DNA from: Vandammella animalimorsus | GTDB lineage: Bacteria; Pseudomonadota; Gammaproteobacteria; Burkholderiales; Burkholderiaceae_C | Direction: 5' to 3' | DNA: 64,000 nt | Assembly (NCBI RefSeq): GCF_002285285.1 | Contig: NZ_NSJF01000003.1 | Location: forward strand, 186,001 to 250,000 | Shown here: positions 31,055 to 54,929 of the stretch, one piece after another | How positions within the stretch are numbered: the stretch's first letter is position 1 | Layout of the letters: each line of letters begins with the position of its first letter | Program-made: the position numbers and the translations under genes | Notes under the pieces: generated by a model | Told to the model about the DNA's origin: nothing | Seen by the model: only the letters and a program-made list of their open reading frames with translations | Databases searched by the model: none

Positions 31055-31427
31055 GGGGCTGTCCTGGTTTCGACGTGGGTACGGATCTGGAGTGGCGCAT
31101 GCCGAGCTTGAGTCACGCTCGTAAATCTCGATTCACTAAACTAACTGCAAACGACGATCGTTTCGCACTCGCCGCCTAAATCCGGCGAGACTTGCAACAG
31201 CTCGCTGATGGGCTGGGCCAAAGCCGCAAGGTAATGGCTGCAAGTGAATTCACATCAGCTGGCCACATGCCGGGCATCTTGGCATGTGGCGAGACCCAAG
31301 GATGCTGGCCTGATCGATAGCGTGTGGCTGCGCGATCGACCCGGCGAGATCAAAACAGACCACTAAGCATGTAGAACTGCCCGGCAAAGGCTTGCGGACG
31401 CGGGTTCAACTCCCGCCAGCTCCACCA
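31055..31427 (+). ncRNA. ssrA: Transfer-messenger RNA (tmRNA)
   Basis: About 373 nt. The 5' end GGGGCTGTCCTGGTTTCGAC and 3' end GGGTTCAACTCCCGCC...TCCACCA form the tRNA-Ala-like domain with encoded CCA. The tag reading frame starts at GCA 31147 and reads ANDDRFALAA before TAA (31177-31179). The RNA rescues stalled ribosomes with SmpB and marks nascent peptides for proteolysis. The common betaproteobacterial tag is ANDERFALAA, so this has Asp for Glu at position 4. Pseudoknot-like inverted repeats follow the tag (GCCACATGCC / GGCATGTGGC). Confidence 0.97.
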
Positions 31428-41622: not shown

Positions 41623-42273
41623 ATGCTTGATCTTCGCCACAGCGGCGTGCAGCACTTCGCCCTGCCCCACGGCCCCATGGAGGTGCTGATCGATGCCGCC
41701 TGCGCCCAGCCGCCGCGCGGCATTGCCTTGATCGCCCACCCTCAACCACTGCTGGGCGGCAGCGCTCGGCACAAGCTGCCGCAGTTTCTGGCCCAAGCCC
41801 TGTGCCAGGCTGGCTGGAGCACCCTGCGCCCCAACTTCCGCGGCGTGGGCGATAGCGCCGGACAGTACGACCACGGCCAGGGCGAAGCCCAGGACTTGTA
41901 CGCCCTGTACCAGGCCGTGCGCAGCGCGCAGCCGGATCTGCCCATTGCCCTGTTGGGCATTTCTTTTGGCGCCTTTGTGCAAGCCTTGCTGGCTGAGCGC
42001 CTGCAGCAACAGGGCCAGCCCGCCGCGCGGCTGGTGCTGGCGGCCATGCCTTGCGGCCAAGTCAATGCCCAGCGCCACTACGCCACCCCCGATGCCATCG
42101 GCGCGCCGCTGGTCATCCACGGCGAGCACGACACCAGCGTGCCACTGCCGCTGGTGCTGGACTGGGCGCGCCCGCGCAGCCACCCGGTGCTGGTCGTACC
42201 CGGCGCCAGTCACTTGTTCACCGGCAAGCTACCACTGCTGCGCGAGCTGGTGCTGCGCCATCTGCAAGCCTGA
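41623..42273 (+). CDS. Alpha/beta hydrolase
   Basis: A 216-residue hydrolase-fold protein with an HPQPLLGGS oxyanion loop, FRGVGDSAG, nucleophile elbow GISFGA (Ser about 109), Asp in HGEHD and His in GASHLF. This is the small 'HPHP' subgroup found across proteobacteria; substrate unknown. It follows lpxH by 57 bp. Its TGA stop is the first three bases of repeat copy A. Confidence 0.75.
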   Translation: MLDLRHSGVQHFALPHGPMEVLIDAACAQPPRGIALIAHPQPLLGGSARHKLPQFLAQALCQAGWSTLRPNFRGVGDSAGQYDHGQGEAQDLYALYQAVRSAQPDLPIALLGISFGAFVQALLAERLQQQGQPAARLVLAAMPCGQVNAQRHYATPDAIGAPLVIHGEHDTSVPLPLVLDWARPRSHPVLVVPGASHLFTGKLPLLRELVLRHLQA

Positions 42274-42411
42274 GAACCTGTTCAAAATCTCGGCGCGAGT
42301 GGGCAAGAAGTGGTTTGCGATGGGCTGCAAGGCTTTGCGAGCGCCGCAGACCGCAGACCGCCCAAATCCGCTTGATTGCACACCGTGCATAGATTTCGAA
42401 CGGCTTTGAGA
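42271..42411. repeat. Palindromic dispersed repeat, copy A (internally deleted)
   Basis: Left end TGAGAACCTGTTCAAAATCT, right end AGATTTCGAACGGCTTTGAG, about 141 bp. The body (GGGCAAGAAGTGGTTTGCGA and CCCAAATCCGCTTGA) matches copies B and C but lacks about 30 bp around the central CCATAGC hairpin. Same orientation as copy C. It lies between the alpha/beta hydrolase and the RNase gene. Confidence 0.8.
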
Positions 42412-42448
42412 ACCCCGCCACCGCCGCCAAGCGACAAACCGGGCGTGC

Positions 42449-42454
42449 GAGAAT
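42449..42454 (+). promoter_or_regulatory. -10-like hexamer immediately before the RNase II-like gene
   Basis: GAGAAT ends 6 nt before the ATG at 42461, with no ribosome binding site, so the start site would fall on the ATG itself. Confidence 0.35.
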
Positions 42455-42460
42455 ACGCCG

Positions 42461-44554
42461 ATGTATTTGTTGTTTGAAGAAGCTGGCAAATTCCAGGCCG
42501 GCCGCATCCTCTCCGAGGCCGATGCCTCTGCCCAGGTCGAGCTTGACAGCGGCAAGCGCGTCAAGGTCAAGAAAGCCAACGCCCTGTTGAGCTTTGCCCA
42601 ACCCAGCCCGCAGGAGCTTTTGGCCCGCGCACAGACCCTGGCACCCGAGATCGATCTGGATCTGGCCTGGGAATTTGCCCCTGAAGACGAATTCGGCTTT
42701 GTCGATTTCGCACGTGAATACTTCAGCGCCGACGCCAGCCTGGCCCACCAGGTGGCCGCGCTGCTGCGCCTGCACGAGGCGCCGCACTACTTTCGCCGCG
42801 CCGGCAAGGGGCGTTTCAAGAAAGCGCCGGAGGACGTGCTCAAGCAAGCTCTGGCGGCGATCGAGAAAAAGCGCCAGCAGCAGCTGCAAATCGATGCCTG
42901 GGCCGCCGAGCTGGCCAGCGGCCAGACGCCCGAGCCAGTGCGTCAGCAGCTCTACAAAATCCTCTTCAAGCCCGACAAGAACGCCCCTGAGTACAAGGCC
43001 GTGGTCGAGGCTGCGCGCCAGACCCAGCTGCCGCCGCTGACGCTGCTGCAAAACGCTGGCGCCATTGCCTCGTGCTACGAATTTCACTGGCAGCGCTTTC
43101 TGTTCGAGCAATTCCCCAAGGGCCATGCCTTTGCCCCCGTCGCTGCGCCCGAGCCCGATGCCCAGTTGCCGTTGGCGGCTGTAGAGGCCTTTTCCATCGA
43201 CGACTCCAGCACTTCGGAAATCGACGACGCGCTGTCCGTGCAGGGCCTGGGCAGCGGCGAAGTCACGCTGGGCATCCACATCGCCGCGCCGGGCCTGGCC
43301 ATCCGCCCCGGCGATGCGCTGGACCAGCTGGCGCGCGCGCGCCTGTCCACCGTTTACATGCCAGGCGCCAAGTTGACCATGCTGCCCGATGCCGTGGTGC
43401 AGCAATACACGCTGGATGCTGGGCGCGCCAACCCGGCCGTATCGCTGTACGTGCGCATCGATGAGGCCAGCCTCACACCCACGGCCTACGAAACCCGCAT
43501 CGAGCGCGTACAGACCAGCCACAACCTGCGCCACGACCAGATCGACCACATCGTCACCGAGGCTTGGCTGGCCGATGCCCAGCTGCCGACCGCCGAAGCA
43601 GCCGATGCCCACGCCAGCGCCGAGCTGCTGGCGCTTCGGCCTCAGCTGGCCTTTCTCTACCGGCTGGCCCAGACGCTCAAGCAGCGCCGCGAAGACGTGC
43701 GCGGCAAGCCCGAGAACTTCAGCCGCCCAGACTACAACTTCCGCCTGTTGGGGCAGCAGGGCGATCTGCCCACAGGCGATGAAACCGTGCAGATCACCAC
43801 GCGCCAGCGCGGCGCGCCGCTGGATTTGATCGTTGCCGAGGCCATGATCGTGGCCAACAGCCACTGGGGCGGCTGGCTGGCGCACTATGGCGTGCCGGCC
43901 ATCTACCGCAGCCAGCACAGCCTGGCGCCGGGCGTCAAGGTGCGCATGGGCACCAAGGCGCTGCCCCATGCAGGCATCGGCGTGCCCAGCTACGCCTGGA
44001 GCACCTCGCCGCTGCGCCGCTATGTGGATCTGGTCAACCAGTGGCAAATCATCGCCGCCGTGCAAGGCGGGCAAACGGCCGCGCTGAGCGCACCCTTCAA
44101 GCCCAAGGATGCGGAGTTGTTCTCCATCATCAGCGCCTTCGATGCCGCCTACACCGCCTACAACCGCTACCAATCCGACATGGAGCGCTACTGGACGCTG
44201 CGCTACCTGCAGCAAAACCAGATCACCGAGCTGGATGCCGCCATCATCCGCGACGCCATCAACGGCGAGCCCGCGCTGGCGCGCGCCGACACCCTGCCGC
44301 TGGTGCTGCGCGTGCCGGGCGGCAGCGAGCTGGTGCGCGGCACGCGCGTGCGCCTGCGCCTGGGCCAGGCCGATTTGCTGGCGCTGGACATCGGCGCCAG
44401 CGTCATCGCCCGCCTGGACGGCCCCGCCAGCGCCGAGGACATCGGCGGCGACGATGCCGAGCAAGAGGACGCCCAGCTCTCCCCGGCCCTGCACATCGCG
44501 CTGGAAGTGTCGCCAGAGGACGACAGCGCAGCCATCGGCGCGCCTGCAGCCTGA
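42461..44554 (+). CDS. RNase II/R-family exoribonuclease (RNB domain)
   Basis: A 697-residue 3'-to-5' exoribonuclease. The N-terminal 230 residues are helical, without clear cold-shock domains. The RNB domain starts about residue 244 with FSIDDSSTSEIDDALSV, carrying the catalytic aspartates, and continues through YAWSTSPLRRYVDLVNQWQI. A C-terminal S1-like region follows. It differs from E. coli RNase II and RNase R in its N-terminus and resembles the group of RNB proteins found in beta- and cyanobacteria. Role: RNA turnover in the cytoplasm. It begins 50 bp after repeat copy A and is followed by tonB. Confidence 0.88.
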   Translation: MYLLFEEAGKFQAGRILSEADASAQVELDSGKRVKVKKANALLSFAQPSPQELLARAQTLAPEIDLDLAWEFAPEDEFGFVDFAREYFSADASLAHQVAALLRLHEAPHYFRRAGKGRFKKAPEDVLKQALAAIEKKRQQQLQIDAWAAELASGQTPEPVRQQLYKILFKPDKNAPEYKAVVEAARQTQLPPLTLLQNAGAIASCYEFHWQRFLFEQFPKGHAFAPVAAPEPDAQLPLAAVEAFSIDDSSTSEIDDALSVQGLGSGEVTLGIHIAAPGLAIRPGDALDQLARARLSTVYMPGAKLTMLPDAVVQQYTLDAGRANPAVSLYVRIDEASLTPTAYETRIERVQTSHNLRHDQIDHIVTEAWLADAQLPTAEAADAHASAELLALRPQLAFLYRLAQTLKQRREDVRGKPENFSRPDYNFRLLGQQGDLPTGDETVQITTRQRGAPLDLIVAEAMIVANSHWGGWLAHYGVPAIYRSQHSLAPGVKVRMGTKALPHAGIGVPSYAWSTSPLRRYVDLVNQWQIIAAVQGGQTAALSAPFKPKDAELFSIISAFDAAYTAYNRYQSDMERYWTLRYLQQNQITELDAAIIRDAINGEPALARADTLPLVLRVPGGSELVRGTRVRLRLGQADLLALDIGASVIARLDGPASAEDIGGDDAEQEDAQLSPALHIALEVSPEDDSAAIGAPAA

Positions 44555-44574
44555 AGTCCCCACCCATATGCACG

Positions 44575-44580
44575 CATAAT
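44575..44580 (+). promoter_or_regulatory. -10-like hexamer immediately before tonB
   Basis: CATAAT ends 8 nt before the GTG at 44589, with no Shine-Dalgarno sequence between them. Confidence 0.35.
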
Positions 44581-44588
44581 CGGCCGCC

Positions 44589-45473
44589 GTGAACAAGCTG
44601 CTCGCCCACTTCAGAAACCTCTCGGCCTTCTCGATCGCTCTGATCGCTTCGTTGGTCGTGCATGCCGTGCTGCTGACGATTCGCTTCGTCAGCCCAGAGG
44701 CCTTTGAACGTACGCTCAGCGCCCAGCCGCTGGAGGTCATCCTCGTCAACGCCCGAAGTGACGACGAGCGCCCCGAGGAAAGCAAAGCCGTGGCCCAGGT
44801 GGCGCTGGCCGGCGGCGGCGATGCCGACAGCGGCCGCGCCACCAGCCCCACGCCCTACGCTGCGCTCACGCGCATTGGCAGCGACACCGAGGACGCCCAG
44901 CAGCGCCAGGAGACCCCGCGCGAGCGCCAAAACCGCCTGCTGGCCGAGCTGCGCGAGCAGGTTGCGCAACTGCCCGTGCCCGACCCGCGCCGCACCGATC
45001 GCACCCCGGAAGAAGTTGCACAGGAGGAAAAGCGCCTGCTGCTGGTCGAGCAGCTTGCCGAGATCGAGCGGCTCGTCAAGGAAGAAAACGAGCGCCCCAA
45101 GAAGCGCTACATCAGCCCGGCCACGCAAGACTCGGTCACAGCCCTTTACCTGGACCACGTGCGCCGCAGCATTGAGGAGCGCGGCACCAGCAACTTCCCG
45201 ACGCAAAACGGCCGCAAGCTCTACGGCAAGCTGATCCTGACTGTGATGATCGACCACGACGGCAGCGTGCTCTCGGCCGAGGTCGATACCAGCTCGGGCA
45301 ATCTGGCGCTGGACGTGCGCGCCCAATCCATCGTGCACGCCGCCGGGCCGTTCGGCCCCTTCTCGCCGGAAATCCGCCGCACGGCCGACCAGATCGGCTT
45401 TACCTCCACCTTCGAATTCCGCCGCGACGCCACACTGGCCACACAGCTGCAAAGCAGGCCTGCCCAACAGTGA
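44589..45473 (+). CDS. tonB: TonB-family energy transducer
   Basis: 294 residues starting with GTG. One N-terminal membrane helix (AFSIALIASLVVHAVLLTI) with a His as in TonB is followed by a long charged, helical periplasmic linker (rich in Gln, Glu and Arg rather than the usual Pro-Lys repeats). A C-terminal domain (YGKLILTVMIDHDGSVLSAE) resembles the TonB C-terminal fold. It would couple the proton motive force to outer-membrane receptors, but no exbB/exbD lie nearby. The linker makes it TolA-like in appearance. It overlaps the GTG alternative start of aroE by 4 bp. Confidence 0.75.
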   Translation: MNKLLAHFRNLSAFSIALIASLVVHAVLLTIRFVSPEAFERTLSAQPLEVILVNARSDDERPEESKAVAQVALAGGGDADSGRATSPTPYAALTRIGSDTEDAQQRQETPRERQNRLLAELREQVAQLPVPDPRRTDRTPEEVAQEEKRLLLVEQLAEIERLVKEENERPKKRYISPATQDSVTALYLDHVRRSIEERGTSNFPTQNGRKLYGKLILTVMIDHDGSVLSAEVDTSSGNLALDVRAQSIVHAAGPFGPFSPEIRRTADQIGFTSTFEFRRDATLATQLQSRPAQQ

Positions 45474-45499
45474 GCAAGCGCCACAGGCTCGCGCAGCCT

Positions 45500-46453
45500 A
45501 TGCCTAACGCCCCCACACCCGCCGCCGCACAGCCCATGCCTGAAGACATTGCAACACAGGCTGAACTGGCAGAACTGATTGCCCAAGGGCAAGACGCCTA
45601 CGTGGTCATCGGCAACCCCATCACCCACAGCCGCTCGCCCGCCATCCACCAGCACTTCGCCCAACTTACCGGGCAGCGCCTGGTCTACGCCCGCTGCCTG
45701 AGCCCCCTGGAGGACTTTGCCCAGACTCTGGACAGCCTGCGCCAGCACGGCATCAAAGGCTGCAATATCACCGTCCCCTTCAAGCATCAGGCCGCGCAAC
45801 TGGCCAGCCAGTGCGATGCGCGCGTGCAGCTGGCCCAGGCCGCCAACACCTTGGTGCTCAACGGCCCGCAAGGCCCGGTGCAGGCCTTCAACACCGATGG
45901 TCTAGGCCTGGTGCGCGACCTGTGCGACAACGCCGGGCTGCGCCTGGCCGGCGCGCACATCCTGCTGCTGGGCGCTGGCGGCGCGGCCGCAGGCGCGTTG
46001 GCGCCGCTGCTGCAGGCCGGCCCCGCCAGCCTGTACATTGCCAACCGCAGCGCCGAGCGCGCCCAGGCCCTGGCGCAGCGCCACGCCGCCCTGGCCGCCG
46101 AGCACGGCGTGCAGCTGCAGGCCCTGGCGCTGGACGAGATCGGCCACACGCCGCTGCCGGCCATGCAATTGCTCATCAACGCCACGGCCAGCAGCCTGCA
46201 AGGCGCTGCACTGCCCATCCAGAACCTGGCGCGCCTGCTGGCGCCTGGTGCCATGGCCTACGACATGATGTACGGCGCTGCCGCCCAGCCCTTTCTGCAA
46301 TGGGTCAGCAGCCAGGGGCAGAACGTCCGTACGCGCGATGGCCTGGGCATGCTGGTGGAGCAGGCAGCCGAATCCTTTGCGCTCTGGCGCGGCCTGCGCC
46401 CGCCCAGCGCGCCTGTGCTGGCGGCGCTGCGCCAGCAGATCAGCGCGCCCTGA
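45500..46453 (+). CDS. aroE: Shikimate dehydrogenase (NADP+)
   Basis: 317 residues. The N-terminal substrate domain has IGNPITHSRSPAIHQ and GCNITVPFKHQA (catalytic Lys), and the C-terminal Rossmann domain has LLLGAGGAAAGAL and the NADP-binding NRSAERA. It reduces 3-dehydroshikimate. Starts at GTG 45470, ATG 45500 and ATG 45536 are all possible; 45500 is a compromise, and the first 35 or so residues are a low-complexity Pro/Ala stretch beyond the family. The stop overlaps the mtgA start (TGATG). Confidence 0.92.
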   Translation: MPNAPTPAAAQPMPEDIATQAELAELIAQGQDAYVVIGNPITHSRSPAIHQHFAQLTGQRLVYARCLSPLEDFAQTLDSLRQHGIKGCNITVPFKHQAAQLASQCDARVQLAQAANTLVLNGPQGPVQAFNTDGLGLVRDLCDNAGLRLAGAHILLLGAGGAAAGALAPLLQAGPASLYIANRSAERAQALAQRHAALAAEHGVQLQALALDEIGHTPLPAMQLLINATASSLQGAALPIQNLARLLAPGAMAYDMMYGAAAQPFLQWVSSQGQNVRTRDGLGMLVEQAAESFALWRGLRPPSAPVLAALRQQISAP

Positions 46454-47217
46454 TGCCCCTGGCCCAACCAGTGCCCGCCACCAACGTGCGCCCAGGCTTG
46501 GTGCGGCGTCTGATTCTGTTCTGCAAACGCTGGCTGGGCATGCTGCTGTTGGCCGGGCTGTGCCTGCAGCTTTACTTTATGGCGCACAGCCTGGCATTGC
46601 GTTGGCTGGAGCCAGGCTCCACCGCCTTCCAGCGCAGCGCGCTGTGGCACATCCTGCAAGGCAGGCAGGACACCCAGGGCCGCCATTGGCTGCACCAGCC
46701 CGTGCCCAGTGGGGCCATCAACGACCATGCGCGCAAAGCCGTCATCGCAGCCGAGGACAATCTATTCTTCCAGCACAGCGGCGCTGACTGGCGCGCCATC
46801 GAACAAGCCTGGCGGCGCAATGCCCAGGGCCAGTCGCGGCTGCTGGGCGGCTCGACCATTACCCAGCAACTGGCCAAGAACCTACACCTCTCGGGCCAGC
46901 GCAGCCTGCTGCGCAAAGGCCAGGAGCTGCTGCTGAGCTGGATGCTCGAAGCGACGCTGCCCAAGCAGCGCATCCTCAACCTCTACCTCAACCAAGTCGA
47001 ATGGGGCACTGGCATCTACGGCATCGAAGCGGCAGCGAAGCATTACTTTGGCGTCAGCGCAAGCCAGCTCAATGCCGCACAAAGCGCCCGCCTGGCTGTC
47101 ATGCTGCCGCAGCCAAGGCGCCTGGGCCTGGCGCCGCACAGCCCCTACATGAACCGCCGCACCCAGGTCATCGTGCAGCGCATGCCGGCCATTGCGCTAC
47201 CATCGCCAGCCCCTTGA
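46453..47217 (+). CDS. mtgA: Monofunctional peptidoglycan glycosyltransferase
   Basis: 254 residues; one N-terminal membrane helix and a GT51 domain with [14 protein letters not shown] and [16 protein letters not shown]. It polymerises lipid II into glycan strands at the inner-membrane surface and lacks a transpeptidase domain. It starts within the aroE stop codon, so translation is coupled. Length typical of MtgA (about 240). Confidence 0.93.
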
Positions 47218-47230
47218 GCCTCATCTTTCC

Positions 47231-47779
47231 ATGCGCATTCTTGGCATCGACCCCGGCCTGCAAACCACCGGCTTTGGCGTGATCGACGTACACGGCACGC
47301 AGCTGCACTACGTGGCCAGCGGCACCATCAAGACCAACGCCGTGGCGCGTGGCGACCTGCCCGCGCGCCTGAAAATCCTGTTCGACGGCATCGCCCAGCT
47401 CAGCCGCCAGTACCAGCCCGACCAGGCCTGCGTGGAAATCGTCTTCGTCAACGTCAATCCGCAATCCACACTGCTGCTGGGCCAAGCGCGCGGCGCCTGC
47501 GTCACGGCGCTGGTAGCCCAGGGACTGCCGGTGGCCGAGTACACCGCGCTACAGATGAAAAAAGCCGTCACCGGCCACGGCCGTGCAGCCAAATCGCAAA
47601 TCCAGGAGATGGCGCGCCGCCTGCTGCAACTTCCCGGCCTGCCCGGCACCGACGCTGCCGACGCCCTGGGCCTGGCCATCACCCACGCCCATGCCCAGCG
47701 CACCCACAGCGCCTTGCAGAAAACCACCACCTTGCAACGCCGCCAGCACGCCATGTACCGCGCCGGGCGCAGTTACTAG
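47231..47779 (+). CDS. ruvC: Holliday junction resolvase RuvC
   Basis: 182 residues with an RNase H-like fold. The catalytic acidic residues are visible as Asp7 (GIDPG), Glu69 (CVEIVF), Asp141 and Asp144 ([14 protein letters not shown]). It cleaves Holliday junctions in concert with RuvAB. ruvAB are not adjacent; the gene follows mtgA by 13 bp, which is unusual relative to the ruvCAB operons of many bacteria. Confidence 0.95.
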
Positions 47780-47797
47780 GGCCTGCGCGCCATGCAT

Positions 47798-47803
47798 TAG
47801 AAT
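47798..47803 (+). promoter_or_regulatory. Possible -10 box upstream of the 57-residue gene
   Basis: TAGAAT followed by a GC-rich discriminator, about 120 nt before the start codon. The candidate -35 (TTACTA) has a 19-bp spacer. Confidence 0.3.
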
Positions 47804-47923
47804 CGCGCGTTTTCCCGCGGCCATTGGCCCCCAGGCTGGGGCGCCAACGGGCAATGCGCTTGACCCATCAGGTCGGCGCGCATTGCCCGATTCGCGCCGC
47901 CCTACCCTTCCGCAGGAGCCGTC

Positions 47924-48097
47924 ATGGGCAACAAAATCGTTACCGAAGCCGATCGCAAATTCACCCCGCCACTGCCCGCCCCCAAAGGCTACGCCATGCC
48001 CAAGCATGGCGGCGGCCAGCGCGTGAGCAAGGAGCGCGGCGTGCACACTCGCAGCAAGAAGAACCCGGGCAAGCGCGCGCACAGCGGCGGCTCCTGA
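47924..48097 (+). CDS. Small basic protein, 57 residues, unknown
   Basis: Encodes MGNKIVTEADRKFTPPLPAP followed by a Gly/Lys/Arg-rich tail ending GKRAHSGGS. A good ribosome binding site (CAGGAG, 8 nt before ATG) and the -10-like TAGAAT support expression. Very basic (about 15 Lys/Arg/His), no hydrophobic segment; composition recalls ribosome- or RNA-associated small proteins, but I know no family. It stands alone between ruvC and repeat copy B. A 221-codon frame overlaps it and the repeat but has no coding look. Confidence 0.6.
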   Translation: MGNKIVTEADRKFTPPLPAPKGYAMPKHGGGQRVSKERGVHTRSKKNPGKRAHSGGS

Positions 48098-48331
48098 TCC
48101 CTGACCTGCCCGGGCAGCAGTCTTGCGCCTGCTGTGGCGGCTTGCTTTCTGTGAAGAGCGGGCTGCCTACGCTTTCCACGCCCGGCGCTTTTCTCACTGC
48201 AACGGCGCGCCATGCGCCATCAGCACAGGCCTCGTCGCGCCCCAGTAGTGTCATTGGTGCAACGCAAACCGGCCGTGGCCACGCAAGCCACCACTTGCCG
48301 CAACCCCGCATTGCCCGCACGCACAGGAGCC

Positions 48332-48500
48332 TGAGAGCCTGTTCAGAATATCTTCACCGCGGGCAAGAGCGCGGATTTGGGCCGCCTGCGGTGCCCGCAA
48401 AGCCTCACCATAGCTCTTGCCATGGATGTGTTTTGCGCCTTGCAGCCATCTCCCAAACCGCTTCTTGCCCACTCGCACCGAGATTTTGAACAGGTTCTGA
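48332..48500. repeat. Palindromic dispersed repeat, copy B
   Basis: 169 bp, opposite in orientation to copies A and C. Ends TGAGAGCCTGTTCAGAATAT and AGATTTTGAACAGGTTCTGA. The outer ends are inverted repeats and the whole element is an imperfect palindrome. The right end stops 2 bp before the proC ATG, so the 5' untranslated region of proC is repeat sequence. The remaining 234 bp upstream (48098-48331) show no gene. Confidence 0.85.
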
Positions 48501-48502
48501 CC

Positions 48503-49336
48503 ATGCAACCAGACATCGTCTTCATCGGTGGCGGCAACATGGCCCGCGCCATCATCGGCGGCCTGCGCCAGCACGGCCAGCCCGCCCCCGCCCTGGCCGC
48601 CATTGAGCCCAATGCCGCTGCACGCGAGGCCCTGACCCAAGACTTTGGCATCCGCACTGCCGGCACGCTGCAGGCGCTGGGCGCCAGCGCTGCTGCGCCA
48701 CTGGCGGCCACCATCGTCTGGGCCGTCAAGCCCCAGGTGCTCAAGGACGCCATGCTCGCGGCGCGCCCGCTGCTGAGCAGCCAGCAATGCCTGCACCTGA
48801 GCATCGCCGCCGGCGTGACCACCGCCTCCATGCAGGCTTGGCTGGGCGATGATGTGCGCATCGTGCGCGCCATGCCCAACACCCCTGCCCTGCTGGGCCA
48901 GGGCATGACCGGCCTGTTCGCCACCGCCAGCGCCAGCCAAGCCGATCGCAGCAAGGCACAAACCATTGCCGCGGCTGTGGGCCAGACGCTGTGGGTCGAG
49001 CAAGAGTCGCTGCTGGACGCCGTGACCGCGCTGTCGGGCTCCGGCCCGGCCTATGTGTTCTATTTCCTGGAGGCCATGCGCGAAGCCGGCACGCAACTGG
49101 GCCTCACACCCGAGCAGGCCTACCAGCTGGCCGTGGCCACCTTCGCCGGCGCCTCGGCCTTGGCAGCACAATCGCCTGAATCGCCCGAAGTTTTGCGCCA
49201 GCGCGTGACTTCCAAAGGCGGCACCACCTTCGCCGCCACACAGGCCATGGACGCCCAGCACATGCAGCAGCACTTCATCGCCGCCATGCGCGCCAGCCAC
49301 GACCGCGCTCGGGAAATGGCGCGTGAATTTGGCTGA
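48503..49336 (+). CDS. proC: Pyrroline-5-carboxylate reductase
   Basis: 277 residues; NAD(P)-dependent last step of proline synthesis. FIGGGNMARAIIGGL is the Rossmann motif, and VRAMPNTPALLGQGM and ALSGSGPAYVFYFLEAM are conserved. The start MQPDIVFIGGG is the family start; the open upstream frame runs through repeat copy B and is not coding. No proper Shine-Dalgarno sequence is present except AACAGG inside the repeat end. Confidence 0.95.
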   Translation: MQPDIVFIGGGNMARAIIGGLRQHGQPAPALAAIEPNAAAREALTQDFGIRTAGTLQALGASAAAPLAATIVWAVKPQVLKDAMLAARPLLSSQQCLHLSIAAGVTTASMQAWLGDDVRIVRAMPNTPALLGQGMTGLFATASASQADRSKAQTIAAAVGQTLWVEQESLLDAVTALSGSGPAYVFYFLEAMREAGTQLGLTPEQAYQLAVATFAGASALAAQSPESPEVLRQRVTSKGGTTFAATQAMDAQHMQQHFIAAMRASHDRAREMAREFG

Positions 49337-49399
49337 TCCTCTGCAGCCTCCCATCGCGAGCAAACGCAGCACTTTGTGAGCTTGCCCCACGCCTTGACC

Positions 49400-50287
49400 A
49401 TGCCCGCTCAAACCACAGCCCGCAAAGGCATCATTCTCGCTGGCGGCTCCGGCACGCGCCTGCACCCGGCCACACTGGCCATCAGCAAGCAGCTGCTGCC
49501 GGTCTACGACAAGCCGATGATTTATTACCCGCTCTCGACCCTGATGCTGGCCGGGATCCGGGACATTCTCATCATCAGCACGCCGCAGGACACGCCGCGC
49601 TTTGCGCAACTGCTGGGCGATGGCAGCGCCTGGGGGCTGAACCTGCAGTACGCCGTGCAGCCCAGCCCCGATGGGCTGGCCCAGGCCTTTCTCATCGGCG
49701 AGTCGTTCCTGGCCGGTGCGCCCAGCGCCCTGGTGCTGGGCGACAACATCTTCTACGGGCACGATTTCGAGACCCTGCTGACCCAGGCCGATGGCCGCAG
49801 CGCAGGCGCGACGGTATTTGCCTACCACGTGCACGACCCCGAGCGCTATGGCGTGGTGGCCTTCGATCCCCAGGGCAAGGCCGTCTCCATCGAGGAAAAG
49901 CCGCAGCAACCCAAAAGCTCGTACGCCGTCACCGGGCTGTATTTCTACGACGCCCAGGTGGTGGAAATCGCCAAGGCCGTGCGCCCCAGCGCCCGCGGCG
50001 AGTTGGAGATCACCTCGGTCAACGAGGCCTACCTGCAGCAGGGCCAGTTGAACGTGCAAATCATGAAGCGCGGCTACGCCTGGCTGGACACCGGCACCCA
50101 CGACAGCCTGATGGATGCTGGCCAATTCATTGCCACGCTGGAGCGCCGCCAGGGCCTGAAGATCGCCTGCCCCGAGGAGATCGCCTGGCGCAAGGGCTTC
50201 ATCGACAGCGCCCAGCTCGAACGCTTGGCCCAGCCACTGGCCAAGAGCGGCTACGGCCAGTACTTGCTGCGCATGATTCGCGACTGA
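49400..50287 (+). CDS. rfbA: Glucose-1-phosphate thymidylyltransferase
   Basis: 295 residues with the RmlA signature [37 protein letters not shown] and [13 protein letters not shown]. First enzyme of dTDP-L-rhamnose synthesis, for O-antigen or other surface glycans. Length and motifs are complete. rfbC follows after 15 bp, but rfbB and rfbD are not in the window. proC upstream is unrelated in function. Confidence 0.96.
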
Positions 50288-50302
50288 CCCCATAGCCACA
50301 CC

Positions 50303-50857
50303 ATGCACACCTGCGCCACAGCCATTCCCGACGTGCTGATCCTGGAGCCCAAGGTCTTCGGCGACGCACGCGGCTTTTTTCTGGAGAGCTTCAACGCCCG
50401 CACCTTTGCCCAAGCCACCGGACTGCAGCTCGATTTCGTGCAAGACAACCACAGCCGCAGCCGCAAAGGCGTCTTGCGCGGCCTGCACTACCAGCTGCAA
50501 CAACCCCAAGGCAAGCTGGTGCGCGTGGTGCGCGGCGCCGTGTTCGACGTGGCCGTGGACATCCGCCGCGGCTCGCCCACCTTTGGCCGCTGGGTGGGCG
50601 TGGAGCTGAGCGAGGACAACCAGCGTCAGCTATGGGTGCCACCGGGTCTGGCGCATGGCTTCGTCGTACTCAGCGACAGCGCCGACTTCCTCTACAAAAC
50701 CACGGACTACTACGCGCCTGAACACGAGCGCAGCATTGCCTGGAACGATCCGGACATCGGCATTGCCTGGCCACTGGCCGAGCACGGCATCGAGCAGCCG
50801 CAGCTATCGGAAAAAGACGCCCGCGCGCTGCCGCTGGCCCAGGCCGAGCTGGCCTGA
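50303..50857 (+). CDS. rfbC: dTDP-4-dehydrorhamnose 3,5-epimerase
   Basis: A 184-residue cupin enzyme; PKVFGDARGFFLESFN, KGVLRGLHYQLQQPQGKLV (catalytic His) and FDVAVDIRRGSPTFGRW are diagnostic. It epimerises C3 and C5 of the dTDP-keto sugar, third step of dTDP-rhamnose synthesis. It forms a two-gene unit with rfbA and is convergent with tktA, with nested palindromes in the 177-bp gap. Confidence 0.96.
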   Translation: MHTCATAIPDVLILEPKVFGDARGFFLESFNARTFAQATGLQLDFVQDNHSRSRKGVLRGLHYQLQQPQGKLVRVVRGAVFDVAVDIRRGSPTFGRWVGVELSEDNQRQLWVPPGLAHGFVVLSDSADFLYKTTDYYAPEHERSIAWNDPDIGIAWPLAEHGIEQPQLSEKDARALPLAQAELA

Positions 50858-50983
50858 ACGACACCGAGTTGACGACGCCAATCAAAACCTGCCTGGATTC
50901 TGTTGCTGGCTCCATTCGAATCTGGGCAACAGCTGATGGGCCATTGATGGCCCCCCACCGTCTGCGGCATTGACAAGACAAAG

Positions 50984-51023
50984 CCCATGTACGAGGCACA
51001 ACAGGTGCCATCCCGTACATGGG
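50984..51023. terminator. Nested palindrome between rfbC and tktA
   Basis: CCCATGTACG / CGTACATGGG (perfect 10 bp) enclosing GGCAC / GTGCC, with a small internal loop. No T-run on either strand, but the position between convergent genes fits a bidirectional terminator. A smaller palindrome GGGCCATTGATGGCCC lies at 50938-50953. Confidence 0.5.
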
Positions 51024-51034
51024 GACAAGCAATG

Positions 51035-53074
51035 TCAGCGCTTGCGGCGCTGCAGGGCTGCTTGCACGGTGTCGGCCACGTTCTCGGCGGTGAAGCCAAA
51101 GTGCTGGAACAGATCGGCCGCCGGGGCCGATTCGCCATAGCAGTCGATGCCCACCACGGCGGCGCAGCCGTATTTCCACCAGAACTGCGTCACACCGGCT
51201 TCGACGGCGATGCGCGGCAGCTTTTCCGGCAGCACCTTGATCTGGTACTTGACGTCCTGGCGGTCGAACACCGTGGTGCTGGGCATGGAGACCACGCGCA
51301 CGGCGATCTTGCGCTGCGCCAGCAGTTGCTGCGCCTGCAGCGCCAGCGCCACTTCGGTGCCGGTGGCCAGCAGCACGGCCTGCGCGGCTTTCTTCAGGCC
51401 CACATCGGCCGGCTCGCTGAGCACGTAGGCGCCGCGCTTGATGTCGGCCACGTCCTTCTTGGCTGCATAGGGCACGGCCTGGCGCGAGAGCAGCAGGGCC
51501 GTGGGGCGATCGTGCTGCAGCAGCGCCTCGGCCCAGGCGATGGCGGTTTCGGCGGTATCGGCCGGGCGCCAGACGTCCAGATTCGGGATCAGCCGCAAAC
51601 TGGCGGCGTGCTCAATGGATTGGTGGGTCGGGCCGTCCTCGCCCAGGCCGATGGAGTCGTGCGTGAAGACGTGCACGACGCGGCGCTTCATCAGCGCGGC
51701 CATGCGGATGGCGTTGCGGCTGTAATCGCTGAAAGTCAGGAAGGTGCCGCCGTAGGGGATGAAGCCGCCGTGCAGCGCGATGCCGTTCATGATCGCGGCC
51801 ATGCCGAACTCGCGCACGCCGTAGTTGATGTGGCGGCCAATCTGGCCGGCTTCGTCGCGCTGCACCGCGCCTTGCGCATCCAGGCGCAGCGCAGGCGTGC
51901 TGGCCGTTTGCGTCAGGTTCGAGCCGGTCAGATCGGCCGAGCCGCCCAGCAGCTCAGGCAGGCTGCGGGTGAGCGCTTCCAGCGCGATCTGGCTGGCTTT
52001 GCGCGTGGCGACTTTCTCTTGTTTGGTGTGCGCATCGACCACCATGTCCACCACGGTCTGGTGGAAGTCCTTGGGCAGGGCGCCGGCCATGCGGCGCGTG
52101 AACTGGGCGGCCAGCTCGGGGTGGGCGGCGGCATAGGCCTCAAAGCGCTGCTGCCAGTCTTGCTGGGCGCGCGCACCGGCGGCCTTGGCGTCCCAGTCGG
52201 CATAGACGTCATCCGGGATCTCGAACGGCGCGTGCGGCCAGGGCAGGTTTTGGCGCACCAGGGCGATTTCCTCGTGGCCCAGCGGCTCGCCATGGGCCTT
52301 GGCGCTGTCCTGGCGGTTCGGGCTGCCCTTGCCGATGTGGGTTTTGCAGATGATGAGGCTGGGCTTGTCCTGCACGGCCTTGGCCTTGGCGATGGCGGCA
52401 TCCAGGGCTTGCACGTCGTGCCCGTCGATGGGGCCGATGACGTCCCACTGGTAGGCAGCAAAGCGCTGCGCCGTGTCGTCGACGAACCAGGGCGCGACCT
52501 GACCGTCGATGGAGATGCCGTTGTCGTCGTACAGCGCGATGAGCTTGCCCAGCTTCCAGGCTCCGGCCAGCGCGCAGGCCTCGTGGCTGATGCCTTCCAT
52601 CAGGCAGCCATCGCCCAGGAAGACATAGGTGTGGTGGTCAACGATGGCATGGCCGGGACGGTTGAACTCGGCGGCCAGCAGCTTTTCAGCCAGCGCAAAG
52701 CCCACGGCATTGGTCACGCCCTGGCCCAGCGGGCCAGTGGTGGTTTCCACGCCGGGGGTCACATCCACCTCTGGGTGGCCAGCGGTCTTGCTGTGCAGTT
52801 GGCGGAAGTTCTTCAACTCCTGCATGGGCAGGTCGTAGCCGCTCAAGTGCAGCAGCGCATACAGCAGCATCGAGGCATGGCCGTTGGAGAGCACGAAGCG
52901 GTCGCGGTCGGCCCAGCGCGGGTCGGCCGGGTTGTGACGCAGGTGGCGGCTCCACAGTGCCACGGCCATCTCCGCCATGCCCATGGGCGCGCCGGGATGG
53001 CCGGAGTTGGCTTGTTGAACGGCATCCATCGCCAATGCACGGATTGCATTGGCCATCGCAGTGGTGTTGGCCAT
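51035..53074 (-). CDS. tktA: Transketolase
   Basis: 679 residues; thiamine-diphosphate enzyme of the pentose phosphate pathway, supplying erythrose 4-phosphate for aromatic amino acids. [36 protein letters not shown] (ThDP binding) and the [17 protein letters not shown] segment are intact. Start [15 protein letters not shown] long leader lies upstream; it contains a terminator-like hairpin. Confidence 0.96.
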
Positions 53075-53159
53075 GGGGGAGAGGCTCCAGAGAAAAGAAA
53101 CAGCGATCAGAAAAAAGAAAGCTCTGCGGCGACCGTAAGGGTGGCAGAGGCTCCAAAAC

Positions 53160-53199
53160 AAAAAAGCCGCGCGCCACAGGCGTCGGCAAGCGGCGCGGT
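53160..53199 (-). terminator. Terminator-like hairpin in the tktA leader
   Basis: On the minus strand a GC-rich imperfect stem (CCGCGCC / GGCGCGCGG) followed by TTTTTT ends 86 nt before the tktA start. It could end upstream transcription or act as an attenuator. Confidence 0.35.
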
Positions 53200-53202
53200 A
53201 TT

Positions 53203-53330
53203 TTAGAGCCTGTCCTCAAAAATCCTCGTGCCGCACTCATCCGCAAGATCGGGCCATTTGCTGCGCTACGGCGCCACCGCAACGGCTGGGGCCACTGCGG
53301 TGGCGCGCGTCTTGCTTTCCCGCCTGATCT
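53203..53330. repeat. Possible relative of the palindromic repeat in the tktA/aminotransferase gap
   Basis: Starts TAGAGCCTGTCCTCAAAAAT (53204 on), similar to the end of the repeat family, and has a central CCACCGCA / TGCGGTGG inverted repeat with GATC-containing arms on both sides. The internal sequence does not match copies A-C. The gap 53075-53495 (421 bp) holds no gene. Confidence 0.4.
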
Positions 53331-53495
53331 GCAACGCACATTGGTCGCAAGCGGCGCGGCGTCGGCGGGCTGGGCCGAGCTGGTTCTACGGTATGCTTGC
53401 CGCGCCTCGGTGCGCGCCGCCTTCATACATTCATCGGCCATAGCCCGCACAGCGCGCGCTGCCCTCACACCCAATCCATTGCCTACAAGACATCC

Positions 53496-54644
53496 ATGCC
53501 CGGCCTGCTGCCCCACGTCGATCCCGACGGTTTGCTCGAATTCTCCGTGGTCTATACGGACCGCGCCCTCAACCACATGTCGCAACGCTTCGTCGGCGTG
53601 ATGCAGGACATTCTGCGCACGCTGCACAGCGTCTACAACGCCCACAGCGCGGCGCTGGTGCCGGGCAGCGGCACTTTTGGCATGGAGGCGGTGGCGCGCC
53701 AGTTCGCCCACGGCAAGAAGGTGCTGGTGGTACGCAATGGCTGGTTCAGCTACCGCTGGTCGCAAATCTTCGAGGCCGGCCACTTCGGCGGCACGGCCAC
53801 CATCTGCCAGGCCCGGCAGCTGGGCGATGACGCGCAGTCACCTTGGGCGCCCATGCCTGCGCAAGAGGTGGCCGAGCAGATTCGCCGGCAACGCCCGGAG
53901 CTGGTCTTCGCCCCACATTGCGAGACCGCCAGCGGCATCCTGCTGCCCGATGACTACATCCGCACACTGGCAGATGCAGCGCATGAGGTGGGCGCGCTGC
54001 TGGTGCTGGACTGCATTGCCTCGGGCGCGATCTGGGTGGACATGCAGCGCTGCGGCGTGGATTTGCTGATTTCGGCACCGCAAAAGGGCTGGAGCAGCAC
54101 GCCCTGCTGCGCCATGGTCATGTTCTCCGAGCGCGCGCGCCAAGCCATTGAGGCCACGAGCAGCAGCAGCTTTGCCTGCGATCTGAAGAAATGGCTGCAC
54201 ATTGCCGAAGGCTATTTGCGCGGCCAACACGCCTACCACACGACCATGCCCACCGATGCCCTGCTGCAACTGCGCGACACCATGCTGGAGACCCAGGCCC
54301 TGGGCTGGGACTTCCTGCGCGAGCGGCAGATCGAGCTGGGCACGCAGGTGCGCGCACTGTTGCAAGCGCATGGCTTTACCAGCGTGGCCGCGCCTGGCTT
54401 TCAATCGCCTGGCGTAGTGGTCAGCTACACCAACGACCCTGACATCCAGAACACACGCAAATTCCTGCAGGTCGGCATCCAGGCCGCTGCCGGCGTGCCG
54501 CTGATGTGCGGCGAGGGCGAGGAGTTCCGCAGCTTCCGCCTGGGCTTGTTCGGGCTGGAGAAACTGCAGCACATCGAACGCAGCGTCGCGCAGTTGCGCG
54601 ATGCGCTGCAGCAGATCGCGCCCCGACAGGCTGCGGCGGCCTGA
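53496..54644 (+). CDS. Class V aminotransferase
   Basis: A 382-residue PLP enzyme similar to alanine-glyoxylate, serine-glyoxylate or 2-aminoethylphosphonate transaminases. FSVVYTDRALNHMSQRFVGV is N-terminal, VPGSGTFGMEAVAR binds phosphate and LISAPQKGWSS holds the PLP lysine. It may act in amino acid or C2 metabolism; the exact substrate is unclear. Start at MPGLLPHVDPDG. The TGA stop is in the motif CCTGAGAGCC, and repeat copy C begins 43 bp later. Confidence 0.82.
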   Translation: MPGLLPHVDPDGLLEFSVVYTDRALNHMSQRFVGVMQDILRTLHSVYNAHSAALVPGSGTFGMEAVARQFAHGKKVLVVRNGWFSYRWSQIFEAGHFGGTATICQARQLGDDAQSPWAPMPAQEVAEQIRRQRPELVFAPHCETASGILLPDDYIRTLADAAHEVGALLVLDCIASGAIWVDMQRCGVDLLISAPQKGWSSTPCCAMVMFSERARQAIEATSSSSFACDLKKWLHIAEGYLRGQHAYHTTMPTDALLQLRDTMLETQALGWDFLRERQIELGTQVRALLQAHGFTSVAAPGFQSPGVVVSYTNDPDIQNTRKFLQVGIQAAAGVPLMCGEGEEFRSFRLGLFGLEKLQHIERSVAQLRDALQQIAPRQAAAA

Positions 54645-54687
54645 GAGCCTCTGTGCGCAGGGCGCACGGGCAGCACGCCCGGCCCCT

Positions 54688-54854
54688 TGAGAGCCTGTTC
54701 AAAATCTCGGCGCGAGTGGGCAAGAAGCGGTTTGGGATGGGCTGCAAGGCGCAAAACGCAGCCATAGCTGGGGCTATGGCGAGGCTTTGCAACGCAGCAG
54801 AGCGCCCAAATCCGCTCTCTTGACCGCCGTGCAAAGATTTTGAACAGGCTCTGA
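54688..54854. repeat. Palindromic dispersed repeat, copy C
   Basis: About 167 bp, same orientation as A and reverse of B. Ends TGAGAGCCTGTTCAAAATCT and AGATTTTGAACAGGCTCTGA are nearly perfect inverted repeats. The centre CCATAGCTGGGGCTATGG forms a hairpin, and arms such as AAGCGGTTTGGG / CCCAAATCCGCT pair outward, so the whole element folds as one long imperfect hairpin. It lies between the convergent aminotransferase and fpr genes. Confidence 0.88.
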
Positions 54855-54929
54855 GAAGGTCTGCACGAATTCAGCCGTCAGGTGCCTGCCGCGATTCGTG
54901 CAGAGGCTTTGAATAAGCGCCTTTGCCGC

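Follow-up and report, generated by a model that had tools for sequence, protein, structure and literature searches.

Three palindromic units, here called A, B and C, lie within a 64,000-nucleotide stretch of Vandammella animalimorsus DNA (assembly GCF_002285285.1, contig NZ_NSJF01000003.1, positions 186,001 to 250,000; hereafter the window), and they raise the question of what keeps such a repeat in a genome: its ends alone, or also the hairpin between them. Our analysis indicates that the interior is a conserved hairpin module, other than debris of an insertion sequence (IS). The core of this module is conserved, its paired positions covary, its two strands differ in their pairing, and elements with different ends have different IS partners. 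We consider it moderately probable that the units are miniature inverted-repeat transposable elements (MITEs) moved by an IS5-family IS, and that their interior is a mobile RNA hairpin aiding the persistence or spread of the element.

Spanning 74 nt, the core forms an imperfect hairpin whose internal loops are conserved and whose stems covary. Alignment A1 comprised 57 of 61 diverse cores that had been chosen from 193, its rows being picked by a sequence pattern; four longer cores (L128, L209, L230 and L262) were omitted. RNAalifold folded the 57 cores into a single hairpin interrupted by two internal loops, AAGGC/AACGCM and GCA/GA, and the structure that we counted was this fold minus one loop-crossing pair and plus two tip pairs. 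Cells able to pair made up 92.2% of the alignment (shuffles, 72.5 ± 0.8), and covariation scored 0.487 compared with 0.148 ± 0.010; for both measures, 0/500 shuffles reached the real value. When the pairing partners were slid along A1 as a control, covariation was at most 0.127. The pattern used to pick the rows leaves little of the middle helix and of the loops free to vary, and the invariance of these parts is accordingly in part a matter of choice; most of the covariation is held by the tip and the outer helix, which the pattern leaves free. In 14/57 rows, one middle-helix pair fails to form. A fairer sample for loop conservation is given by 37 cores that were found by a covariance model and not selected by the pattern: CAAGGCGC was present in 31 of them, CGCA in 35 and GCAAC in 33. 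The core could not be assigned to any family of Rfam 15. In the window only transfer-messenger RNA (tmRNA) and tRNA exceeded their gathering thresholds, and at a permissive E-value nothing passed the cut-off on a core in sets of 20 and 14 loci, the best sub-threshold match being MIR904 in L150 (32.8 bits, cut-off 80).

Could paired changes of this kind arise without selection? MITEs need only their ends for mobilisation, and correction within a palindrome can create double changes that are not selected. The units may then be ordinary MITEs with an inert interior, in which the core is ancestral filler that stays while the ends drift, and template switching within the palindrome produces the paired changes. 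The decayed cores of copies A and B are in line with this explanation, as are two short, core-less pairs of ends that lack a target duplication (L405 and L409). Template switching would erase unpaired loops, yet the loops are well conserved, also in the matches that the pattern did not select. We regard an inert interior as unlikely.

Next, we sought to determine how widely the core occurs. In a search of 60 relatives, those of the listed matches that lay outside the genus covered only the middle of the unit, and at these places the middle sits inside other palindromes with different ends. The core pattern (GCRAGGCGCARNNCGCAG, tip, CGAGNNTYTGCAACG) was present in 36/150 genomes of the family, while the reversed control gave 0 in every row. 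At least 116 stretches in GTDB genomes carry the pattern. The titles seen were mostly those of Burkholderiales and their kin (Variovorax, Acidovorax, Comamonas, Roseateles, Extensimonas, Tibeticola, Castellaniella, Herbaspirillum, Duganella and Methylobacillus); a few were labelled otherwise, among them Lujinxingia vulgaris and several metagenome-assembled genomes, the latter perhaps misbinned. The covariance model matched 90/369 genomes of a class sample at E ≤0.001 (74/314 of the good ones) and 50/299 genomes of a phylum sample at E ≤0.0001 (32/239 of the good ones), the V. animalimorsus genome being included in both and the E-values of these tallies being rough. The names of the class and phylum are those that we take the sampled genomes to bear from the taxonomy of the relatives. 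Many matching genomes have several copies and many have one only. With copy C as the query, the plasmid search returned one record, from Mitsuaria, covering half of the query, and no match was found among annotated phages. The core pattern was found in two IMG/VR contigs (L410 and L411), which is few compared with its frequency in genomes, and these two places may be proviral flanks.

The MITE-like elements that carry the core have ends of roughly a dozen kinds, and these ends differ widely. A search of the GTDB loci that left element length free assigned ends to 78/83 cores. Fifty elements had a flanking repeat of at least 3 bases: 31 were 155–165 bp long, 7 were 250–270 bp long and 12 had other lengths (133 to 314). 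The same two sizes recurred, with exceptions, in more distant loci. The longer form contains a second, inverted core that starts 104–109 bases on. Across all loci, 125 elements with ends in set ranges were reduced to 59 representatives, one per 9-base end; because the arm ranges were set (44–62 on the left, 44–64 or 150–172 on the right), the narrow lengths of these representatives are partly built in. With flanks and shifts allowed, the representatives fell into 13 groups at 12/14 matching bases, 6 at 11 and 1 at 10. Shuffled pairs matched at 12/14 in 0.06% of cases, and at 11/14 chaining set in. This recount led us to give less weight to the explanation that we favour, and to the reading of the core as an older module set out below, and more weight to an inert interior. 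A separate observation concerns genome G167, where the two ends of many listed copies differ in the same way (TGTTTGATGCT vs TGTTCGACGCT), with exceptions; in the copies whose core was read (L125 and L160), the differences form G.U pairs on the core strand.

The apical position of the core in one-core elements, together with its presence between different ends, could also suggest that the core moves as a small unit of its own, inserting into the tips of existing palindromic MITEs. The length classes of the length-free search (31/50 and 7) fit one lineage better than repeated insertion. Moreover, among 20 further end sites of the V. animalimorsus genome, the three pairs that retain a duplication of the triplet TNA (N, any base) all still bear the core, and no core-less element with such a duplication was found. 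A core that moves on its own is therefore very improbable.

The two strands of the elements are not equivalent. When the one-core representatives were folded as RNA, the strand that bears the core was the more stable in 46/46 cases, by a mean of 14 kcal/mol, and it remained so in 46/46 cases, by a mean of 9 kcal/mol, after the core had been cut out. The two-core representatives (n = 13), which carry one core per strand and serve as a built-in control, were split 5 to 8, with a mean of +0.5. In the arms of the one-core representatives outside the core, G.U pairs outnumbered A.C cells by 102 to 19 (p 6e-15). The wobble-type cells of A1 comprised 59 G.U and 14 A.C on the strand shown (hand tally), and the 37 model-found cores had 62 and 7, a count that is not independent because the model favours G.U. 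An inert interior predicts no excess of G.U over A.C, and if the palindrome were kept as DNA only, or by the copying of one arm from the other, there would be no evident reason for a strand bias.

A bias of this kind need not point to RNA, as G.T pairs stabilise DNA hairpins more than A.C does. The selected molecule could be single-stranded DNA of one polarity, formed as an intermediate of transposition or replication, and this would agree with the random orientation of the elements to genes (see below) and with the fact that no transcript of the core is known to us. We know of no strand-specific single-stranded stage in IS5-type transposition. In two one-contig genomes, a hand tally of matches on the two strands showed no evident bias between the replication halves (G302, 8+/8− then 4+/5−; G448, 9+/7− then 5+/3−), and so gave a role of the replication strand no support; the counts are few, the origin is assumed to lie at the contig start, and a two-core element contributes one match per strand. 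Single-stranded DNA as the selected molecule seems to us quite unlikely.

To place the units of the window in their genome, copy C was used as a query against the whole 3.08-Mb sequence. It matched 40 near-full-length places, itself included (E 6e-83 to 8e-56), and one weaker place (E 8e-20), with 40/167 candidates scored. Together with A, B and three complete units at other end sites (L391, L395 and L403), the family has at least 46 members, and the likeness among them goes far beyond what chance would give; all copy numbers are lower bounds, since only part of the candidates was scored per genome. The typical unit is about 161 bp long, and its terminal 17-mer, with up to 2 mismatches, occurs 149 times in the genome, compared with 0 for the reversed control. 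Flanks were read for 42 copies, of which three lie in the window and 39 were taken from the rest of the genome (one row, L072, is a diverged neighbour copy, and the full copy beside it was not counted). An identical triplet flanked both sides in 33/42 copies, and it was always TNA (TGA in 13, TCA in 7, TTA in 7 and TAA in 6). The triplet was preceded by C in 31/42 copies and followed by G in 30/42. Copy A was scored as unmatched by the automatic test and is among the nine copies without identical triplets; its right end has a one-base deletion, and once this is allowed for, TGA stands on both sides. Also in this genome, four core elements with diverged ends lie head to tail with a spacing of 162 bp (L151, G000:C11:33422-34434), and neighbours there apparently have one flanking triplet in common.

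An empty site was found for copy A: the orthologous place in relative G006 reads ...CAAGCC-TGA-GAACCCC..., with a single TGA and no element. Copy B is shared with G006 and is therefore older. Copy C is absent at its orthologous place in G006, where the flank is altered and no clean empty site is readable. In relative G008, the place of copy A holds a short end-like stretch, that of copy B a run of N, and that of copy C a contig end. High copy number, target duplications, the empty site of copy A and an IS with near-identical ends (see below) thus support the units as non-autonomous MITEs, whose movement we infer from the copies, the duplications and the empty site.

All three copies reported by the earlier note are present in the window (Table 1), and so is their arrangement, A and C in one orientation and B in the other. 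The covariance model matched the core of copy C on the plus strand (80.7 bits, E 1.9e-20; this core is one of the 57 rows behind the model), that of copy B on the minus strand (43.3 bits, E 7.9e-10) and, weakly, copy A on the plus strand (42317-42356, E 0.012, with 42 model positions missing). Beyond these three, nothing in the window scored below E 0.28. The inverted 17-bp ends could be confirmed, and copy C folded as RNA reached −96.4 kcal/mol, compared with −58.1 ± 4.1 kcal/mol for shuffles. The units are short and encode no protein, as the note had held, judged solely from the list of open reading frames (ORFs), in which open frames overlap the units. The triplets on either side of B and C were read directly.

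Table 1. Positions of the three units and their parts in the window
Feature	Position	Strand	Remark
MITE copy A	42274..42406	+	133 bp; hairpin lacks its apical part through deletion
Copy A, left target duplication TGA	42271..42273	.	stop codon of ORF 41623-42273
Copy A, right target duplication TGA	42407..42409	.	allowing for the one-base deletion in the right end; confirmed by the empty site in G006
MITE copy B	48335..48497	-	163 bp, diverged
Copy B, left target duplication TGA	48332..48334	.	
Copy B, right target duplication TGA	48498..48500	.	2 bp before ATG at 48503
MITE copy C	54691..54851	+	161 bp, full-length type
Copy C, left target duplication TGA	54688..54690	.	
Copy C, right target duplication TGA	54852..54854	.	
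Copy C, conserved hairpin core	54734..54807	+	GCAAGGCGCAAAACGCAG / tip / CGAGGCTTTGCAACGC; covariance model and covariation
Copy B, conserved hairpin core	48379..48453	-	covariance model
Copy C, left terminal inverted repeat	54691..54707	+	GAGCCTGTTCAAAATCT
Copy C, right terminal inverted repeat	54835..54851	-	

Copy B ends 5 bases upstream of the ATG at 48503, so that its right end occupies the position expected for the ribosome-binding site of the next gene. Adjoining copy C, the window contains an inverted pair, TCTGCACGAAT ... ATTCGTGCAGA (54854-54910), which resembles, with 3 mismatches on each side, the ends GGAACCTCTGCACGAAT of another core-bearing family (L176, Acidovorax) and is probably the remnant of an element that lost its core. 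A tmRNA gene (31055-31427, plus strand, 192.7 bits) is unrelated to the repeats.

The earlier note had placed the mobilising enzyme outside the window, and a candidate was found on another contig of the same genome. This IS5-family IS (L031, G000:C6:254878-255725) is 848 bp long, is flanked by a TAA duplication and has ends, GAACCTGTTCAAAATCT, that are identical to those of copy C at 16/17 bases; its end variant GAACC is also seen on several diverged MITE copies. Its transposase is of the DDE type and is encoded by two overlapping ORFs, the first matching DUF4096 and the second DDE_Tnp_1. Against the NCBI IS5 model NF033580, the second ORF scored above the cut-off and the first below it. A TTTAAAAAAATC stretch, a run of A, lies in the overlap of the split transposase (L031:1489-2284) and suggests a programmed frameshift, as far as sequence can tell. 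Four more 848-bp copies of the IS are present in relative G009 (L030, L035, L046 and L051), with TAA, TCA, TGA and TTA duplications. The core model gave no match to L031 up to E 5; thus, MITE and IS are alike in their ends only.

Two further pairs of IS and core element have other ends. In G034, a 1,171-bp IS (L314) with ends GGCAACGCTGA and TTAA flanks resembles in its ends the core elements of that genome. Its transposase fits NF033581, another IS5 group than that of L031, and the two transposases have a 28-residue stretch in common by BLASTP. In G009, the end AGCGTGTTATGCACTTT of an 873-bp IS (L056) also bounds a two-core element in L051, which directly adjoins the 848-bp IS. The 848-bp IS adjoins the end TTAGAGCGTGTTATGCACTTT of another element type both at L051:1144-2259 and in the right flank of L031, and in L051 this end bounds a complete two-core element. 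Side-by-side pairs of this kind might reveal how ends change.

Where the elements inserted relative to genes was examined in the same 42 copies. In 21/42 the duplication coincides exactly with the stop codon of a flanking gene, which thus keeps its stop. For comparison, 38/269 non-coding TNA sites of the window are stop codons (14%; binomial p 4e-8), as are 13/73 sites in the stricter context YTNAR (18%), with genes called by a simple codon-usage model. The excess is partly a matter of survival, because gene-disrupting insertions would have been eliminated. It also raises the possibility that the hairpin is a cis-acting mRNA element, which after a stop codon would stabilise, process or terminate the host transcript and be kept for doing so. 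The hairpins of Correia and ERIC elements affect mRNA processing or decay, according to the accessible part of PMC10969869, and the minus strand of copy C has a terminator-like stem with a T-rich tail (1 vs 0.4 expected, within chance). An oriented role in mRNA, however, finds no support in the orientation of the core, which is random both at stop codons (11 sense, 10 antisense) and between tandem genes (12 to 14) in the V. animalimorsus genome, the orientation of copy A having been set by hand. Eight other copies lie between convergent and three between divergent genes, and five have no assignment. Nor are the positions conserved: the nearest relative lacks copy A and has no copy C at the corresponding place. 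We give a cis-acting role little credence.

Herein, we describe how the elements would behave if the interior is, as we favour, a mobile RNA hairpin. The transposase of an IS of the L031 type would act in trans and insert the MITEs into TNA, in many cases a TGA or TAA stop codon. The core strand would be transcribed into an RNA hairpin, and this hairpin would be the selected molecule. It would aid the persistence or spread of the element through the binding of a host factor or through processing, and would act other than as an oriented regulator of neighbouring genes. Through a change of ends, lineages would have become substrates of different IS transposases. A wider reading, which we hold tentatively and would not yet call probable, is that of a structured RNA that is mobile: the hairpin module would predate its present vehicles and may have spread through the Pseudomonadota under the terminal repeats of successive ISs, with the RNA strand, and not the ends, being what selection keeps. 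The one-core form (about 160 bp) and the inverted two-core form (about 265 bp) would then be two chassis of one selfish-RNA lineage.

Several points weigh against a selected RNA. Rows within a group are related, so that the p-values exaggerate the significance, although the direction is uniform all the same. The middle helix is equal on both strands (probability >0.5 in 42/46 sense and 41/46 antisense folds), which locates the bias in the wobble pairs of the stems, above all in those of the arms. The middle-helix pair that fails in A1 is an A.G mismatch in the family to which the window's units belong. For copy C, the middle helix is absent from the lowest-energy sense fold but present in the antisense fold, and the two strands are close in energy (−96.4 for sense, −91.9 for antisense). 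A promoter-like site was looked for around copy C and none was found; the missing transcript and the random orientation to genes, noted above, point the same way. As for the changing of ends, the number of end groups varies with the threshold (24, 13 or 6, the first of these being too high because several ends were misregistered at palindromic GGCC, TGCA or ACGT flanks), and the ends may therefore have drifted with their IS instead of being exchanged. No exchange of ends was observed among the elements compared. Finally, CTAG and TTAA flanks are palindromic and indistinguishable from an inverted-repeat end, a problem from which TGA and TCA are free.

In the usual view, a MITE consists of the ends of an IS around disposable filler, whereas in the present family it is the filler, and not the ends, that has been conserved across great distances, and the pairing pattern suggests that one strand is read as RNA. 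If this is true, many small repeat families of the Pseudomonadota would be one superfamily, and an RNA-level reason for small bacterial repeats could be put to the test in standard mobility and RNA assays. Natural experiments for this purpose exist within the family, which includes one-core and two-core forms, several end types that each have an IS of their own, and insertions placed precisely at stop codons.

How do these elements compare with known systems? The literature searched covered few subscription papers and included accessible parts of PMC10969869, PMC3733652 and PMC2229807; in it, we found no description of a MITE core common to several end types. The genome of Polaromonas JS666, a member of a carrier genus, is cited for MITEs in the accessible part of the review PMC10969869. 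Bacterial MITEs derived from IS5 are alike in being short and non-coding, with terminal inverted repeats, a target duplication and a resident IS with near-identical ends. They differ in that here only the ends match the IS, and the interior hairpin is conserved, also between quite different ends. The Correia/NEMIS elements of Neisseria and the ERIC elements of Enterobacteria are likewise palindromic high-copy MITEs of 100–200 bp that can be transcribed into long hairpins and often lie beside genes, but they have other ends and a TA target. To our knowledge, they have no core in common with other element families.

The REP, BIME and REPIN elements, which are moved by RAYT (Y1) transposases, resemble the present family in their conserved hairpin with fixed unpaired bases, and the two-core elements pair inverted hairpins as a REPIN does. 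In contrast, the present elements are bounded by inverted repeats, make TNA duplications and have a DDE transposase as partner. REP and REPIN are defined, in the accessible part of PMC3733652, by a GTAG or CGTC tetranucleotide at the foot of the hairpin. Neither is conserved at the foot of the 57 cores of A1, read by eye. Of the two alternatives in the earlier note, a MITE or a large REP-like structure, the first is upheld by copy number, duplications, empty site and IS, and the second finds no support in the core alignment. The attC site of integrons is also an imperfect hairpin in which unpaired bases and strand matter, with the boxes RYYYAAC and GTTRRRY. The core differs from it in being located between inverted repeats, and the invariant columns of A1 contain, by eye, no GTTRRRY or RYYYAAC box, the comparison covering the core alignment. 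As far as is known, and within the parts of the sources that were accessible, a strand-biased core conserved across different ends and IS partners is a feature of neither Correia, ERIC, REP/REPIN nor attC. In conclusion, the units show the features of MITEs that were examined and, as MITEs, belong to a known kind; the sharing of one core among elements with different ends is the more interesting finding.

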